Shown here: in pieces, positions 14,644 through 29,181 of the stretch | Position numbering within the stretch: position 1 is the first letter of the stretch | Layout of the letters: each line of letters begins with the position of its first letter | Origin: a virus | Strand: one strand, 5' to 3' | IMG/VR virus record: IMGVR_UViG_3300044858_005132 | Location: 1 to 29,181 of that record | Length of the DNA stretch: 29,181 bases | Notes under the pieces: model-generated | The model's input: the letters and a program-made list of their open reading frames with translations, nothing else | Databases searched by the model: none | What the model was told of the DNA's origin: nothing | Position numbers and translations under genes: made by a program

Positions 14644-15588
14644 CTACAGAGCTCTCCCAGCACCGCACACCACCCGAAAACCGAAGCTGCTGTTGAGGCC
14701 GCCGCGGCTGTCGCTATTGCTGCGGTAAGCAGAACGGCAGCGACAAGAATAGCTGAACCAAGAACCGCCCCGCCGAGGAGGATCCCCATTTTCTATCCAG
14801 GCACTGCCATCCGTCGGCGCACCGTAGTTATCGTGCCAGGTATCGGCGCACCACTCCCAGACATTGCCGTGCATATCGTACAAACCGAAGGCATTGGGCG
14901 GAAACTGTCCCACGGGAGTCGTGTGTTTTAGATATTATACTTTGGGTTAATAAGCGTAGGTTTTGCTGGCATCATAGTTAGCCAATTCCCCTGTAATGAT
15001 TTCCCCAAAGTGAAAGGCGGTTGTTGTCCCCGCTCTACAGGCATATTCCCATTCTGCCTCACTCGGTAGTCGGTATTCCCCTCCTGTTAGTTTCGATAAT
15101 CTCGCACAAAATTCGACGGCATCGTACCAGTCGATTTGTTCCACAGGTTTATCCCGGCGCGTGGATGATCCCCCCCTATCCTTAAAGTGAGAGGGATCAG
15201 GATCAAGATCTTTTTTTACTTTCAAATCCGTGCGAGAGGCAACTACTCTCCACTGTGCCTGGGTGATAGGATACTTGCCCATGAAAAAGGGGGGAACGTT
15301 AACCTCATGTTGAGGACGTTCATCATCGTAACTATCTTTCTCGTCTTGCGGTGAACCCATCGTGAATGTCCCCCCCGGTATAGCAATCATCTCTAAGGTG
15401 ATGCCGTTGCCCAAATCTTCGCTGAAATATTGGGACTGTTTCGACTCTTTTTTGATTTGCTCACCCTTCTCATTTACTCGCACCACCTCAAAGTTAAATG
15501 ATAACAATTCTAACTTTTGCAACGGTTTAACTGAATCTGGATTAACTGAGACTGGAACCTTCTTTGATTGCGTATTTTGATGTTTCAT
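14644..15588 (-). pseudogene. FGE-fold protein with DGR-like variable region, interrupted by two stops
   Basis: The first part (to 14947) has the FGE-sulfatase/C-type-lectin-like fold: EMIAIPGGTFTMGSPQDEKD, MGKYPITQAQW, and [20 protein letters not shown]. Two in-frame TAA codons (14947-14949 and 14935-14937) stand where homologues read a Gly/Lys-rich loop. The same frame then continues with [25 protein letters not shown], and a C-terminal variable region (about 14674-14770) ending GFRVVC. Variable codons there are nearly all NNC (TTC, AGC, TGC, TAC, GAC, GGC, CTC), the footprint of AAC mutagenesis. A GTG at 14913 could restart translation. The gene is flanked by duplicated 3' ends of its upstream neighbour. 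Confidence 0.8.
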
Positions 15589-21566: not shown

Positions 21567-21765
21567 TTAGTTTTTTTTATCTGTTTGATCCATCATTATT
21601 AATGTAAAAAGGTCAAAAGCATCTTGGTTACTTTGTCTTAATGCTATTAACTCTTCTGGGTTATATTTCATGAAAAGACGTAAATTAAGAACCACGATAG
21701 ATAAAGCTTTAACTTGTCGCTCTAAACTCTAATCTTTCATTAATTCTTTCTTTCTGATGTGTCAT
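21567..21765 (-). pseudogene. Small gene coupled to pentapeptide protein B, split by a 7-bp duplication
   Basis: The ATG overlaps the pentapeptide gene's stop (TAATG). It reads MTHQKERINERLE, then hits a stop. In the next frame the protein continues ERQVKALSIVVLNLRLFMKY, NPEELIALRQSNQDAFDLFT, LIMMDQTDKKN. The join contains TTAGAGT-TTAGAGC; removing one seven-base unit restores a single 60-65-aa frame. So it is either a recently broken gene or one that could switch by gain and loss of the unit. Confidence 0.65.
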
Positions 21766-22820
21766 TAATCTACTCCTTGTCTAATTAAATCCTGTTCTTG
21801 TTCAGGGGTGATCCCCGTTGCACCGATAAAGATAGCGTCTTCAATGTCAGCCCCTCTCAGGTTAGCTTTACTCAGGTCAGCCCCTTTTAGGTTAGCCTCA
21901 ATCAGAATAGCTGCATTCAGGTCAGCCCCACTCAGGATAGCCCAACTCAGATCAGCCCAACTCAGAATAGCATCACTCAGAATAGCATCACTCAGGATAG
22001 CCTTAATCAGTTTAGCCCCACTCAGGTCAGCTTCTCTCAGGTCAGCTTCACTTAGGATAGCTTCACTCAGTTTAGCTTCTCTCAGGTCCGCTCCACTAAG
22101 GATAGCCCCTCTCAGATTAGCCCCTCTCAGGATAGCCCCACTCAGGTCCGCTTCACTTAGGATAGCCTTAATCAGCTTAGCCCCACTCAGGTTAGCCCAA
22201 CTCAGGTCAGCCCTTCTCAAGTTAGCCTCAATCATTTTAGCCCAACTCAGGTCAGCCCAACTCAGGTCAGTCCTTCTCAGGTTAGACCTTCTCAAGTCCG
22301 CTCCACTCAGCTTAGCCCCACTCAGGTTAGCCCAACTCAGGTCAGCCGCGCTCAGGTCAGCTCTTATCAGTTTAGCCCCACTCAGGTCAGCCCTTCTTAG
22401 TTTAGCCCCCCACAGGTTAGCCTCACTCAGGTCTGCCCCACTTAGGTCAGCCTTAATCAGTTTAGTCTCACTCAGTTTAGCCCCTCTCAGAATAGCCCCA
22501 CTCAGTTTAGCTTCTCTCAGGTCCGCCCCACTCAGGTCAGCCTTAATCAGGTCAGCCCCACTCAAATCAACTTTATATAGAGTTGTCTTATCGATTGTTC
22601 CCTCTCGAATTTCCTTAATTAATTCGGCTTTTTCAATAACTTTTACATCTGTAGTGAACTCTGCTTTTGTGACGATAATTTTGGGTATATCGTCTAATTT
22701 AACATTGAGAAGGGCTTGCAATTCCCCAGATTGATGTAAATCTGCTAGACGCTGGAGTCCATCTTCTGAACCTTCTAAAAATAATCGAATACTGCCTTTA
22801 AGTTGCGGTTTAATGTTCAT
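21765..22820 (-). CDS. Pentapeptide-repeat protein B
   Basis: 351 aa, AGGAGTAAACCA before the ATG. The N-terminal ~85 residues (LKGSIRLFLEGSEDGLQRLA) are nearly the same as in protein A at 338-1096. About 48 pentapeptides follow (LSGADLSEANLWGAKLRRAD style) and the end GATGITPEQEQDLIRQGVD matches A as well. The two differ mainly in repeat number, as expected from slippage or recombination between repeats. It is translationally coupled to the small broken gene after it. Role unknown. Confidence 0.9.
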   Translation of the reverse strand: MNIKPQLKGSIRLFLEGSEDGLQRLADLHQSGELQALLNVKLDDIPKIIVTKAEFTTDVKVIEKAELIKEIREGTIDKTTLYKVDLSGADLIKADLSGADLREAKLSGAILRGAKLSETKLIKADLSGADLSEANLWGAKLRRADLSGAKLIRADLSAADLSWANLSGAKLSGADLRRSNLRRTDLSWADLSWAKMIEANLRRADLSWANLSGAKLIKAILSEADLSGAILRGANLRGAILSGADLREAKLSEAILSEADLREADLSGAKLIKAILSDAILSDAILSWADLSWAILSGADLNAAILIEANLKGADLSKANLRGADIEDAIFIGATGITPEQEQDLIRQGVD

Positions 22821-24402: not shown

Positions 24403-24455
24403 TTTTTTTGTTTGGTTGATGATTGTTTACTGATAACTAATAACTGATCGATAAA

Positions 24456-24908
24456 TTAAGTAAACAGTCTTGATGCAGTTGCTAACAGATACACCCATTC
24501 TTCTTCAAGCATTAATTCCGTTTTGGAACCGGCTATATCGAACAAACAAAAGTTAACTTCGTCTATGGGATTACCATCGTAGAATAACTCAATATCAGTA
24601 TATGGGAATACTGTCATAAAGCTAAACTTAAAGTCGGCATTTTGGCGATTTTCGCAGGTTAGTGTAGCAGAATGATCTGAATTTATTTTTAGTTTCCAGT
24701 CAATAATTAAAGGGAAATCTTCTGGCTCTTCGTTACCCTTTATCCATTTATCAATTTCATCTATTATTCGTCTTTGACCCTTTTGAATAAAATAGTAAAT
24801 GCCTTCCGAATATCGAAATGGGAATAACTTTGTTTTGTACCACTTTAACTTAAAGTCTTGTGGCTCTGAGTCAATTTTAGGGAATTGTCCTATATCCATC
24901 ATTGTCAT
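24456..24908 (-). CDS. 150-aa protein, function unknown
   Basis: Starts MTMMDIGQFPKIDSEPQDFK, with AGGAGTAAAACA before it. Aromatic and acidic, predicted mostly beta (IIDWKLKINSDHSATLTCEN, SFMTVFPYTDIELFYDGNPI). No domain recognised. The leader and downstream spacer are the array's standard type. Confidence 0.6.
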   Translation of the reverse strand: MTMMDIGQFPKIDSEPQDFKLKWYKTKLFPFRYSEGIYYFIQKGQRRIIDEIDKWIKGNEEPEDFPLIIDWKLKINSDHSATLTCENRQNADFKFSFMTVFPYTDIELFYDGNPIDEVNFCLFDIAGSKTELMLEEEWVYLLATASRLFT

Positions 24909-24958
24909 TGTTTTACTCCTAAGTAATTTGTTTACTGATAACTGATACCTAGCTAAAA

Positions 24959-25183
24959 TTAATCAAAAATTGAGCAGATTATTTCTTCCATTTTTTCCGT
25001 GTAATTACATACAGGACGGCAATTTAATTGTTTATGGCAAAGATCGTAAAATTTAGCTTTACTGCCTGCTTTTTCCCATATCCAATGAAGCATCTCACCG
25101 TCAATTCCTTGATTATATGCCCACATATCCGCTTCAATTTTCTCAGATTCATCTTTCCAGTTAGAATTTTGTTGCTGTGTCAT
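24959..25183 (-). CDS. 74-aa protein, function unknown
   Basis: MTQQQNSNWKDESEKIEADM then AYNQGIDGEMLHWIWEKAGS. Helical with two cysteines near the end. It directly follows an FGE-fold gene. The same opening (MTQQQN) and leader reappear after another FGE gene at 27026-27071, but there only the first codons survive. Confidence 0.55.
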   Translation of the reverse strand: MTQQQNSNWKDESEKIEADMWAYNQGIDGEMLHWIWEKAGSKAKFYDLCHKQLNCRPVCNYTEKMEEIICSIFD

Positions 25184-25207
25184 GATACTTAACTCTTAGT
25201 GGTTTTT

Positions 25208-25238
25208 ACTGACAACTGACAACTGACAACTAATAACT
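25208..25238. repeat. Heptamer repeat, ACTGACA x3 plus ACTAATA
   Basis: Perfect tandem seven-base units between two genes. The same type (ACTGATA, ACTAATA) occurs at nearly every gene junction from 24.4 to 28.6 kb and is a known class of short tandem repeat in cyanobacteria. Confidence 0.9.
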
Positions 25239-25244
25239 AATTCA

Positions 25245-25778
25245 TTAATCACAAACTACCCGAAAACCAATATTACGCCAGCAAGAGTTTTTAAAATAGT
25301 AACTGAGTTGATGTTGTGCAGCACAACATCCATAAGAGTAGGTGTCGAATCCGCCCCCACGGGGAACGTTTTGACACAATTCCCAGACGTTGCCGTGCAT
25401 ATCGTACAATCCCCAATTGTTAGGTAATTTCTGACCCACAGGATGAGTTATAAGTCCAGAATTATCTTCGTACCAAGCGTAATCTTTTAGCTGATCGAAA
25501 TCATTACCAAAGCTAAATAGGGTTTCAGTTCCTGCCCGACAGGCATATTCCCATTCTGAATTTGTAGGTAGGCGATAGTTTTTACCAGTCTTTTTTCTTA
25601 GTTTTTGGTAAAAAGCTATAGCGTCGTTATAGCTAACACTTTCTACCGGATTTTGAGGTCTGTTTATAAAATAAGAGGGGTTAATTCCCATTACCGCCTC
25701 ATATTGTTCCTGAGTGACTGGATATTTTCCAATTTTAAAGGTTACGCCAGGAATCTTTACCATTTCAATCTCAATCAT
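25245..25778 (-). CDS. FGE-fold protein B, short form
   Basis: 177 aa, starting MIEIEMVKIPGVTFKIGKYP. It carries the usual fold marks: [75 protein letters not shown], and GFRVVCD at the end. FGE-fold proteins in cyanobacteria are often display or binding proteins rather than sulfatase activators. The catalytic cysteine pair of true FGE is not evident. The C-terminal segment (25255-25365) has fewer NNC codons than the other copies (AAA, GGA and CAA occur), so it is either an old, drifted variable region or is not under diversification. Confidence 0.85.
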   Translation of the reverse strand: MIEIEMVKIPGVTFKIGKYPVTQEQYEAVMGINPSYFINRPQNPVESVSYNDAIAFYQKLRKKTGKNYRLPTNSEWEYACRAGTETLFSFGNDFDQLKDYAWYEDNSGLITHPVGQKLPNNWGLYDMHGNVWELCQNVPRGGGFDTYSYGCCAAQHQLSYYFKNSCWRNIGFRVVCD

Positions 25779-25833
25779 TGTCTTACTCCTAATAGTTTTT
25801 TACTGATAACTAATAACTGCTATTCAGAATTCA

Positions 25834-26124
25834 TCAAAATAAATTCGCTTTATAAAATTGGTTTGCAGGAGGTTCATGCCCTTGACCACCAAGCTGCTCA
25901 TCAATCCATTCTTTTATTCCTGGTGACAACTCAGACACCGTAATGATCGGAGGCAGATCTAAGTCAGGATAAAACATCACATAGTATTGTCGCTGAATGT
26001 TAAGCGCTGGACAAGGCAGTATATCTTCGTAAACAGTTAAAACTGTTAGTATGTGTTTTGAATCAACAACAAGAGCAATTCTGCCTCCGTTTGGAGAGAT
26101 ACCTTCGATGCGAATACCTTTCAT
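25834..26124 (-). CDS. MKGIRIEG family, member 1
   Basis: 96 aa, AGGAGTAAAAAA before the ATG. It opens MKGIRIEGISPNGGRIALVV and has QYYVMFYPDLDLPPIITVSE then LSPGIKEWIDEQL. It is the first of three paralogues (with 26170-26457 and 26805-27026) that share MK(G)IRIEG, SKHILxVLxxYEDxLP, a QYYVxF strand and an ELSPxxxEW helix. Function unknown; the small alpha/beta fold and multicopy nature suggest accessory partners. Confidence 0.65.
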   Translation of the reverse strand: MKGIRIEGISPNGGRIALVVDSKHILTVLTVYEDILPCPALNIQRQYYVMFYPDLDLPPIITVSELSPGIKEWIDEQLGGQGHEPPANQFYKANLF

Positions 26125-26169
26125 TTTTTTACTCCTAATAGTTTTTTATTGATAACTGATAACTGCTAT

Positions 26170-26457
26170 TTAGTCAGGAATACTATCCTCATCACCATAC
26201 CCAGTCCAAACTCGACCAACGATTTGTTTATCAATCCATTCTTTTAGCCCTGGTGACAATTCAAATGTCGTAATGGCTGAATATGATGCAATTGGATCAT
26301 CGAAAATTACATAATATTGTTCAGTGTTTTCAATTTGTGAACAAGGTAATAAATTCTCGTAAGTATCTAAAACACATAGTATGTATTTCGTACTGACAGT
26401 AATAGCAATTCTGCTGCCTAATCTCACAGAAAAACCTTCGATGCGAATACCTTTCAT
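26170..26457 (-). CDS. MKGIRIEG family, member 2
   Basis: 95 aa, MKGIRIEGFSVRLGSRIAIT. Clear paralogue of the two neighbours: YILCVLDTYENLLPCSQIEN, EQYYVIFDDP, FELSPGLKEWIDKQI. Its acidic tail (GYGDEDSIPD) differs from member 1, so the C-terminus is the variable part. AGGAGTAAAAA leads the ATG. Confidence 0.65.
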   Translation of the reverse strand: MKGIRIEGFSVRLGSRIAITVSTKYILCVLDTYENLLPCSQIENTEQYYVIFDDPIASYSAITTFELSPGLKEWIDKQIVGRVWTGYGDEDSIPD

Positions 26458-26524
26458 TTTTTACTCCTAAATAATTGTTATTTTGACGTGGTTCCGAGCC
26501 AAGTTAAAATCTAATCATCACTAC

Positions 26525-26753
26525 TCACTTTAGTTTAATGATTTGACCAGTTTTAACGTCTATAGCCTCAAAATACAATAAATCGTCTCGTTGATTGTAA
26601 TATTCAAAAATTTCAGTAACATCAGCTTCTGTATTTATATTGTGGGAATACTTTAGTTTTTCCTTTCTTATCGCGTATAATAGCGACAACAGTAGAAGTC
26701 TGATTCTTAGGATTGCCATTCTCATCTTTTTCTGCAAAGCTTAAGTGAAACAT
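26525..26753 (-). pseudogene. Small gene broken by a frameshift
   Basis: From the ATG at 26753 the frame reads MFHLSFAEKDENGNPKNQTS, TVVAIIRDKKGKTKVFPQYK, YRS, then TGA at 26622. In the next frame the protein goes on without a gap: EADVTEIFEYYNQRDDLLYF, EAIDVKTGQIIKLK. One indel near 26630 joins the two. The open frame that starts at 26737 mixes a shadow N-terminus with the true C-terminal part. There is no slippery sequence typical of programmed frameshifting, so recent decay is most likely. Confidence 0.65.
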
Positions 26754-26781
26754 AATTACCTCTGTTTATTTGTTGATGATA

Positions 26782-26802
26782 ACTAATAACTGATAACTGA
26801 TA
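26782..26802. repeat. Heptamer repeat ACTAATA-ACTGATA-ACTGATA
   Basis: Three tandem seven-base units in the spacer just after the third MKGIRIEG-family gene. Same class as 25208-25238. Confidence 0.9.
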
Positions 26803-26804
26803 AA

Positions 26805-27026
26805 TTAACTGTTCCATTGACGCAATTCAGGTGATAACTCAAGCGTAGTTATAATTGGCTGCAGTTGAATAATGGGATCAAAAACTACATAGTACTGCTT
26901 TTCCGTATCCAATTGTCGCGAAGGCAATACATCTTCATAAATATAAGCCACGTACAGTATATATTTTAAGTCGATAACTATACCGACTTTACTGCACCCA
27001 CAAATACCTTCAATACGAATCTTCAT
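26805..27026 (-). CDS. MKGIRIEG family, member 3
   Basis: 73 aa from the ATG at 27026 (MKIRIEGICGCSKVGIVIDL), with AGGAGTAAAA upstream. A start at 27071 would add MTQQQNNQNDYLGVK. That prefix is the remnant of a gene start like the one at 25183 and contains this gene's Shine-Dalgarno, so it is rejected. The protein is shorter than its paralogues, ending ELSPELRQWNS. Function unknown. Confidence 0.6.
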   Translation of the reverse strand: MKIRIEGICGCSKVGIVIDLKYILYVAYIYEDVLPSRQLDTEKQYYVVFDPIIQLQPIITTLELSPELRQWNS

Positions 27027-27111
27027 TTTTACTCCTAAATAATCGTTTTGATTGTTTTGTTGCTGTGTCATGACAGTTAACTACTAATAGTTTTTACTGA
27101 TAACTGATTGA

Positions 27112-27756
27112 TTAATCACAGACTACTCGAAAACCGAGAGTGTTGAAGCTGTTGCCATAGCCGTAGTCGTCGCTAATTGCGGAACGGCAGAAATAAGGAA
27201 TGTCGCTCCAGGAACCGCCCCGCTGACACTTATCAATACACCATTCCCAGACGTTACCGTGCATATCGTACAATCCCCAGGCATTGGGTAACTTTAATCC
27301 TACGGGATGAGTTGTACCCTCAGAATTTCCGCAATACCAAGCGTAATCTTCTAACTGATGACAATCATTACCGAAATAATAGTTAGTAGTAGTCCCTGCT
27401 CGACAAGCATACTCCCACTCTGATTCTGTGGGTAAGCGGTAATTCTTACCAGTTACTTGACTTAGTTCTTGACAAAAAGTTATGGCATCGTTATAGTTAA
27501 CTTGTTCTACTGGATTTTGAGGATTGCTTTGAAAATGGGAAGGATTAGTTCCTATTACTGCTTGATACTGTTCTTGAGTCACTGGATATTTTCCTATTGC
27601 AAAAGTTGCGTCAGGAACTTTTACCATTTCAATCTCAATTGCAATTTTAGGGTCTAAACCCGCAAGTTTAGCTAACTCAACCAGATCATCTGTATCTGCA
27701 TTAGCAAGACGCAGGTACAGTTCTTCAACTTCTCGAATAAAATCTGCATCACTCAT
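27112..27756 (-). CDS. FGE-fold protein C with DGR-like variable region
   Basis: 214 aa. An N-terminal helical segment (MSDADFIREVEELYLRLANA) is followed by the FGE/C-type-lectin-like fold: [56 protein letters not shown]. The variable region (27128-27222) lies between RGGSW and LGFRVVCD. Its codons run AGC GAC ATT CCT TAT TTC, then ATT AGC GAC GAC TAC GGC TAT GGC, so almost every variable codon ends in C or T. This is the pattern left by a DGR, which copies a template RNA with errors at A. Solvent-exposed ligand contacts would thereby be diversified. Confidence 0.85.
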   Translation of the reverse strand: MSDADFIREVEELYLRLANADTDDLVELAKLAGLDPKIAIEIEMVKVPDATFAIGKYPVTQEQYQAVIGTNPSHFQSNPQNPVEQVNYNDAITFCQELSQVTGKNYRLPTESEWEYACRAGTTTNYYFGNDCHQLEDYAWYCGNSEGTTHPVGLKLPNAWGLYDMHGNVWEWCIDKCQRGGSWSDIPYFCRSAISDDYGYGNSFNTLGFRVVCD

Positions 27757-27818
27757 TTTTTTGCTCCTAAATAATTGTTAGTTGACAACTAATAACTGAT
27801 AGCCAAGCGAACACAGAG

Positions 27819-28520
27819 TTAAGAACTGTAATCATCTATGTGATCCAGAGACGTTTGAAAACCAGACCAGTATATAGCGGTCAGAAGCTTTCCTCTTTCC
27901 TCTTTAGTCTGTAGAGTCTCTAGGTATTCTACTACTTCAGATAAAATCATATCTTTGTGAGGTTCAGATAACTGTGCTTCCCACATCTCCTCAGCTAATA
28001 GTGTTGGTCTAATAGTTTCTGCCACTCGAAAACCGATACTGTCGTAGCGGCTACCGCGGCGTATGTAGTCGATGCGAAGCGCGGAACGGAAGTTAAGAGG
28101 ATCGGTGCAGTAGGAACCGCCTCGTATTACAACCTGCTGGCACCATTCCCAGACGTTGCCGCGCATATCATAAAGTCCCCAAGCATTGGGCTTCTTTTGT
28201 CCTACAGGATGAGTTGTCTGCTGAGAATTTCCTTTATACCAAGCGTAATCTCCATAATAGTCGTCCGCACGACAGGCATATTCCCATTCCGCTTCCGTTG
28301 GTAAGCGATATTGTTTTCCTGTTGCTTTACTTAATTTCTGGCAAAAAGTTTCAGCATCATCATAGCTGACATTTTCTACTGGATTTTGAGGATTATCTTG
28401 AAAGTAAGCGGGATTAACTCCCATTACTGCTTTATATTGTACCTGAGTCACAGGATATCTGCCAATCCTAAAACTTTTAATTTCTTGACTCGCTGGTATC
28501 TCTACCATTGTAATTGCCAT
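27819..28520 (-). CDS. FGE-fold protein D with DGR-like variable region and C-terminal extension
   Basis: 233 aa. Fold marks: [54 protein letters not shown]. The variable region (28026-28122, from IRGGS to GFRVA) has TAC TGC ACC GAT CCT CTT, CGC ATC GAC TAC, CGC TAC GAC AGT ATC. Compared with gene E, 22 of 26 aligned codons keep the same third base while the first two differ widely. After it comes a 60-residue helical extension ([20 protein letters not shown] onwards), shared with gene E, that would place the display domain on a scaffold or partner. Confidence 0.85.
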   Translation of the reverse strand: MAITMVEIPASQEIKSFRIGRYPVTQVQYKAVMGVNPAYFQDNPQNPVENVSYDDAETFCQKLSKATGKQYRLPTEAEWEYACRADDYYGDYAWYKGNSQQTTHPVGQKKPNAWGLYDMRGNVWEWCQQVVIRGGSYCTDPLNFRSALRIDYIRRGSRYDSIGFRVAETIRPTLLAEEMWEAQLSEPHKDMILSEVVEYLETLQTKEERGKLLTAIYWSGFQTSLDHIDDYSS

Positions 28521-28586
28521 TTCTTACTCCTAAGTGCTTTATTTTTAACAACTGATAGCTAACTTTTTGGGAGGGGCCTTATAATT

Positions 28587-29181
28587 TTAGTCATCCAGGC
28601 ACGCTTGAAACCCTGACCAGTATATAGCAGTTATAAACTTCTCTTTTTCCTCTTTAGTTTGCATAGTCTCTAGATATTCTACTACTTCAGATAGGATCAT
28701 ATCTTTATACGGTTCAGGCAGCTGTGCTTCCCACATCTCTTCAGCTAATAGTGTTGGTCTAATAGTTTGTGCTACCCGAAAACCGACATTGTTGAAGCGG
28801 AGCCCGCGGGGGGGGCTGCTGTCGCGATTTGCGGAACGGCAGCAATAAGGAGGGTCGTTCCAGGAACCGCCCCGCAGCCACTTATCAATACACCATTCCC
28901 AGACGTTGCCACTCATGTCATAGAGTCCCCAAGCATTAGGTAATTTTTGCCCTACAGGATGGGTTATCAGCCAAGCATTAGGTGATTTTGCTGCGCCTAC
29001 AGGAAAGGTTATCAGCCCAGAGTTGTCTTCGTACCAAGCGTAATTTCCTAATTGATTAGCATCATCTCCAAAATAATAATCAGTAGTAGTCCCCGCACGA
29101 CAGGCATATTCCCATTCCTCTTGTGTGGGGAGGCGATACTTATGGCCAGTCATTCCATTTAATTTTATGCAAAAGGCTTGA
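28587..29181 (-). CDS. FGE-fold protein E with DGR-like variable region, cut by window edge
   Basis: The frame is open to the right edge ([20 protein letters not shown]), so the ATG at 29153 is internal and the true start lies beyond. It has [20 protein letters not shown] and [18 protein letters not shown] tandem duplication gives [15 protein letters not shown] and then [14 protein letters not shown], where relatives have a single copy. The variable region (28776-28872) has AAC GAC CCT CCT TAT TGC, AAT CGC GAC AGC AGC, TTC AAC AAT GTC. The C-terminal helix extension ([20 protein letters not shown]) matches gene D. Confidence 0.85.

Follow-up and report, generated by a model that had tools for sequence, protein, structure and literature searches.

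How does a run of genes in a lytic phage come to carry DGR-type variable regions (VRs) when the stretch of DNA around them holds no sign of the rest of a DGR? This is the question raised by the window, by which we mean the whole 29,181-nt IMG/VR contig IMGVR_UViG_3300044858_005132. The contig belongs to a Ma-LMM01-like Microcystis phage (Fukuivirus), of whose genome of about 160-180 kb it covers about 29 kb; the host, Microcystis, is a bloom-forming cyanobacterium. The assignment follows from nucleotide similarity, with MaMV-CH01 covering 62% of a 24.7-kb window query at 89% identity and LMM01 covering 54% of it at 90.5% identity, and from a gene order shared with Ma-LMM01, with which the window is colinear. 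Genes annotated in the relatives include a tail collar protein, ThyX, an antirepressor, a phosphoesterase and pentapeptide genes. Since the whole contig is colinear with Fukuivirus, its FGE cluster lies inside a lytic phage genome and not in a cellular region, and the "phage module 12 kb away", which a preliminary description of this DNA had treated as a separate part, is no such thing, the entire contig being phage. Two pentapeptide-repeat genes (338-1096 and 21765-22820) share a 102-nt stretch that is 94% identical at a distance of 21.7 kb.

The window contains five FGE genes (A-E), all on the minus strand. Gene C (27112..27756) encodes a 214-aa FGE/CLec protein of the DGR-type variable kind (PF03781, E=1e-35), for which the best PDB match is Treponema denticola Variable Protein 1 (2y3c, E=2e-28); its VR (27124..27222) measures 99 nt, one codon below the host template TR1 introduced below, the gene having one codon fewer than D and E. 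Gene D (27819..28520) encodes a 233-aa FGE/CLec protein (PF03781, E=3e-33) with a 102-nt VR at 28023..28124, and gene E (28587..29181; PF03781, E=5e-25), an FGE/CLec gene whose 5' part is lost at the contig end, has a VR of 102 nt at 28773..28874; both D and E continue past the VR with a tail of about 65 aa. These three VR-bearing genes had already been recognised in the preliminary description, with VR coordinates within 1-4 nt of those given here, and the fourth target which it placed 12 kb off is indeed a VR-bearing FGE gene. This is the host-like FGE/CLec gene A (14644..15588), with a 102-nt VR (14671..14772) of the TR2/TR3 lineage, though it is broken in the window by two in-frame TAA codons inside its PF03781 match (14668-15393); intact alleles are found in contigs L009, L010, L046 and L078.

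Gene B (25245..25778) is an FGE paralogue without a DGR signature and served as an internal control. As a candidate DGR target it was rejected for its lack of A bias, its indels and its diverged third positions: against TR1 it shows 26/66 non-A mismatches, and 14 of 29 third positions in the VR region are mismatched. Its family (RGGGFDT...CRAA...NIGFRV; also in L039, L042, L047, L048, L051 and L055) varies strongly at the C-terminus, including indels, without the adenine signature. Three small paralogous ORFs of 88-96 aa lie between the FGE genes (25834-27071, minus strand), and the one of the three that was tested (26170-26457) has no Pfam match. Repeated TTATCAGTTATTAGTTATCA-type motifs (repeat families D10 and D13) occur in the intergenic sequence of 24410-27801, upstream of genes of the FGE cluster.

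A comparison of D with E over 30 codons gave 13 mismatches at first, 16 at second and 4 at third codon positions, which agrees with the earlier count of 22 of 26 codons that keep the third base. The differences between D and E affect 24 of the 29 positions at which the host template reads A and 12 of the 73 elsewhere (Fisher p = 5e-10). At codon positions 1 and 2 alone the bias is kept, with 23/28 A against 6/40 non-A positions (p = 3e-8), and it is thus more than a product of codon structure.

As for the machinery, the 29-kb window has no match to the RT family PF00078, as had been noted before from its reading frames. The idea that the rest of the DGR lies beyond the right edge did not hold up, as six complete relatives lack both RT and template. 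In these Fukuivirus genomes we found no template, no RVT_1 match even at E<=1, and nothing resembling the RT protein of Microcystis aeruginosa FD4, a query that recovers its own plasmid p1FD4 at E=1e-244. Each of the six carries 2-4 FGE genes, and the template-like places in complete phages are 75-80% identical and all fall in FGE genes, except for one 70-nt stretch of LMM01 (29002-29071; L179:3002-3071). As a template this stretch was rejected, being the remnant of a broken FGE gene and not AAC-rich; the remnant, with its VR fragment, sits at the position of window gene E. RVT_1 is likewise absent from 44 IMG/VR records in which FGE relatives occur. A relative of the Microcystis DGR RT turned up in just two IMG/VR contigs, at 47% identity and neither of them Fukuivirus, and a degenerate TR pattern retrieved two unrelated contigs from IMG/VR and nothing else. 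With most of the phage genome unseen there is some room for an RT and template encoded elsewhere in it, outside the window, but these searches have already largely refuted that explanation and we consider it very improbable. Of a complete DGR cassette, the window and the six complete relatives have no RT and the phages no TR; both occur in Microcystis. The preliminary description had named the absence of RT and template from the replicon as grounds for abandoning a DGR; that absence does hold for the genus Fukuivirus, but with the template located in the host, the DGR origin stands.

The template was inferred from the VRs of related IMG/VR contigs by placing A at variable columns, prior to any use of host sequence. 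The inferred template was found in 96 of the 390 cyanobacterial genomes searched, with a DGR-type RT motif within 1.5 kb at 21 of the 30 loci fetched from that search; among 50,697 phage records it matches 9 Fukuivirus records and no others. Its best plasmid match is p1FD4 of Microcystis aeruginosa FD4, at 94.1% over 102/102 nt. There the template TR1 (L227:16692-16793) lies 25 nt downstream of the stop codon of an intact RT and upstream of an FGE target, and upstream are the genes for Avd, for a MoxR ATPase and for a GUN4- and FGE-domain protein of 1238 aa. The p1FD4 DGR comprises Avd, RT, TR and two FGE targets together with a MoxR conflict system. The VR of the FD4 target departs from TR1 at 14/29 A and 0/73 non-A positions, and it is this restriction of differences to adenines that validates the p1FD4 cassette.

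Other Microcystis genomes, which were found via an IS element of p1FD4 (a genome scan seeded by gene C had no Microcystis among the 80 loci retained), vary in what they retain. An intact RT of the FD4 type is present in 4 of 12 Microcystis species genomes, with fragments in others, and template and RT occur on the p1FD4 plasmid and in three other Microcystis genomes. On plasmid p1 of NIES-2481, an 89% copy of the template comes right after a DGR RT (L228:9191-10101; plasmid 36425-37335) with one in-frame TGA, and this locus is a decayed host DGR. Fragments of DGR RTs were also seen in the FD4 chromosome, G627:C15 and G592:C84. For NIES-843, only group II intron RTs and no DGR RT are on record (PMC8934634), so that many hosts would be unable to supply the function. 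A chromosomal Microcystis FGE gene (L236-L241, L245 and L246) has a near-identical VR, SWGYNP[TN]YCRSAIRYDYYFRRVNRINNYGFRV, in 8 of 12 species, and this VR is frozen across the genus. The IS607-type transposase of LMM01 had no plasmid match.

When the phage VRs are compared with these host templates, mismatches concentrate at template adenines. Against TR1, the VR of gene E differs at 18/29 A and 6/73 non-A positions (p=5e-8), that of D at 16/29 and 8/73 (p=7e-6), that of C at 15/29 and 8/70 (p=4e-5), and that of LMM01 gp062 at 18/29 and 3/73. The VR of gene A, compared with TR2, differs at 19/31 A and 7/71 non-A positions (p=2e-7); its non-A mismatches number 7/71 with the TR2/TR3 lineage versus 12/73 with TR1. 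Overall, the phage VRs are 75-80% identical to TR1 across about 100 nt, most alleles have a conserved 3' anchor GGTTTTCG.GTAGTCTG at the VR, and several features of a remote DGR target are present: a VR near the 3' end of a CLec/FGE gene, at least 50% identity to the TR and, for C, D, E and A, the adenine-centred mismatches. As C, D and E fit TR1 and A fits TR2/TR3, the phage bears the imprint of two or more host template lineages. Of the earlier proposal of a single template, the part concerning C, D and E is retained, but gene A is better explained by the other lineage; the broader claim of A-directed mutagenesis from AAC/AAT-rich templates, acting on several targets that belong together, is borne out by the A-site bias. 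Judged by these alignments, the VRs are shown to derive from Microcystis-type templates.

The age of the VRs relative to the genes that carry them was assessed with 24 host genes from 12 genomes. Third codon positions in the gene bodies of C, D and E match the nearest Microcystis gene identified at 60-64%, whereas the non-A third positions of their VRs are about 90% identical to TR1 (mismatches 122/322 in bodies versus 10/98 in VRs, p=3e-8). The phage gene in L073 (locus II, below) has 72% in the body versus 100% in the VR, and control gene B exhibits no such contrast. Because the VR is closer to the host than the body is, VR sequence entered these genes after their bodies had diverged from the host genes seen.

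Variation among phage alleles is clearest at locus II, which corresponds to LMM01 gp062 and to contigs L050, L054, L067, L069, L073 and L074, all colinear with Fukuivirus. Two main VR alleles exist among the last five of these contigs, each recovered from two or more independent metagenomes. L069 and L074 are identical over 300/300 nt upstream and differ within the VR at 11/29 A and 0/73 non-A positions (Fisher p=2e-7, remaining at about 1e-5 after multiplication by 65 pairs, with such values to be read as a guide since related alleles are not independent). Likewise, L054 and L074 are identical upstream (300/300) and downstream (150/150) and differ in the VR by 11 A and 1 non-A changes. Between LMM01 and MaMV-DC, the gp037-type VRs differ at 17/29 A versus 5/73 non-A positions, with flanks that are 90% (upstream) and 97% (downstream) identical, and the gp062-type VRs at 15/29 A and 7/73 non-A positions. 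On the other hand, 48 of 65 pairs with <=5% upstream divergence have <=2 A-site differences and are in this sense frozen. Several contigs carry near-identical versions of the window's C, D and E, genes that show no sign of recent change and whose VRs look frozen; the A-restricted variation across strains that the preliminary description called for is hence found at locus II but not at these three genes. Diversification is episodic, as expected if just some hosts carry the DGR.

What process could bring host-templated sequence into phage genes? We think it probable that the phage FGE genes are phage-borne remote targets of a host-encoded DGR. In DGR-positive hosts such as M. aeruginosa FD4, the host RT would make A-mutagenised cDNA from the TR, its sequence would replace the homologous stretch in the phage FGE genes, and the free-standing phage CLec proteins would thereby acquire new binding surfaces. 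Such overwriting would take place in trans in the infected cell, through retrohoming or annealing of the cDNA, and two observations argue for it: exchanged tracts limited to about 44 nt with identical flanks, and old gene bodies combined with young VRs. Retrohoming in trans is harder to reconcile with the position of the tracts. The 11 differences between L069 and L074 lie in the middle of the VR, with the mutated 3' codons (TAC TTC CTT) common to both, and gene D of L013 has kept the 3' end of its VR; as canonical homing is primed at the TR 3' junction (PMC12875486) and so starts at the 3' end, these tracts bear a closer resemblance to patch recombination. Annealing of a cDNA patch to phage DNA during its replication could account for both the short tracts and the spared 3' ends.

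The same spared 3' ends are compatible with a process of capture only, in which the DGR acts on host genes alone, no phage gene is a target of retrohoming, and phages pick up FGE genes or VR segments, already diversified, when their DNA undergoes homologous recombination with that of the host or of a co-infecting phage. Gene A of L009, which combines the VR type of the FD4 target with that target's 3' flank (3' UTR) beyond the TR, is a case of host-gene capture; furthermore, linker, VR and tail were swapped as a block between L050 and L054, phages that are otherwise 97-98% identical, and LMM01 has a UvsX/RecA-like recombinase with middle-phase expression (PMC5780444). As both trans overwriting and capture leave A-restricted differences, the adenine signature is shared by the two. 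What speaks against capture as the sole process is that the exchanges between L069 and L074 and between L054 and L074 are limited to the VR, too short for ordinary gene exchange, and that third positions in the C, D and E bodies show 36-40% divergence from the nearest host gene identified, with VRs near the TR. We regard it as a possibility to be taken seriously, if a somewhat doubtful one. There is next to no chance, in our judgement, that no DGR is involved and that the pattern arose by ordinary positive selection acting on the surface of a lectin fold whose framework codons are conserved. Many non-DGR FGE proteins, the gene B family for example, also have conserved CLec frameworks (RGGSW..CRSA..GFRV), but variable codons keep their third positions, near-identical phages differ at template adenines only, and a real template beside an RT matched the one predicted in advance, a match by which this reading is refuted.

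If phage genes are indeed targets of a host DGR, their function deserves attention. LMM01 gp062 (L179:15682-16515; 41679-42509) is annotated as a "kinase", yet it is an FGE/CLec-fold gene and, to judge by its alleles, the most variable DGR target of Fukuivirus seen here. It falls within gp054-gp063, the early block of Ma-LMM01 associated with host takeover, and gp037 belongs to a separate expression cluster, gp037-gp041; early genes of this phage were reported to be without database homologues (PMC5780444). Since this hot target sits in the early host-takeover block, its role would most likely be interaction with host factors rather than virion adhesion. DGR-diversified FGE domains have been proposed as sensors in MoxR systems (PMC7159879, PMC10907252), and early, free-standing relatives of such a sensor domain in a phage hint that they may act as decoys or interfere with the system. 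That they are decoys against a host immunity armed with DGRs is speculation, and it seems to us rather unlikely that a lytic phage keeps its CLec proteins as passive targets of the host DGR, with the machinery that diversifies the host's immune sensors diversifying at the same time early phage proteins that function as decoys or dominant-negative subunits of the host's FGE-bearing MoxR systems. If true, the DGR would act across replicons, and a single mutagenic template would serve both sides of an arms race.

The implications extend to how such systems are found. DGR surveys seek a VR next to an RT, and according to one large survey remote targets would be missed (PMC8144416); phage genes templated in another organism are invisible to searches of this kind. 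If phages use host DGRs, hypervariable phage proteins may outnumber current counts, and the first interaction of a major bloom cyanophage with the infected cell would involve host-made diversity. Additionally, the system offers a concrete test case for whether DGR-diversified cyanobacterial conflict systems act against phages, because the phage carries relatives of the conflict-system sensor domain, one of them expressed early. In the open-access literature searched, we came across no description of a host DGR that serves targets in a phage, and claim no priority on that basis.

Remote VRs within one genome are known from cyanobacteria (PMC7517822), nanoarchaea (PMC4372165) and gut prophages (PMC12629997). 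A close likeness is to the cyanobacterial DGRs of Vallota-Eastman et al. 2020 (PMC7517822), which have the same CLec/FGE targets with VRs near the 3' end, likewise many scattered targets per RT, and the same template architecture; there, however, remote targets and RT reside in one genome, whereas here a lytic phage holds the targets, and RT and TR belong to a replicon of the host, either plasmid or chromosome. The conflict systems described by Kaur et al. 2020 (PMC7159879) and Dore et al. 2024 (PMC10907252) share their ternary-system context with p1FD4, whose DGR adjoins a MoxR ATPase and a large GUN4/FGE protein as in those systems, but their sensors are cellular and the phage copies are free-standing FGE proteins without MoxR or effector partners. 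In gut prophages, a distal second VR has been reported near counter-defence genes (PMC12629997); the likeness lies in the distal VR, and unlike here, RT and all VRs are in one phage genome. Bordetella phage BPP-1, finally, is the established case of a phage-borne CLec target (Mtd), also subject to A-directed mutagenic retrohoming (PMC3240598). In BPP-1 the phage itself provides RT, Avd and TR, and the diversified product is a tail-fibre protein, whereas Fukuivirus has no RT or TR and its most variable target is an early gene.
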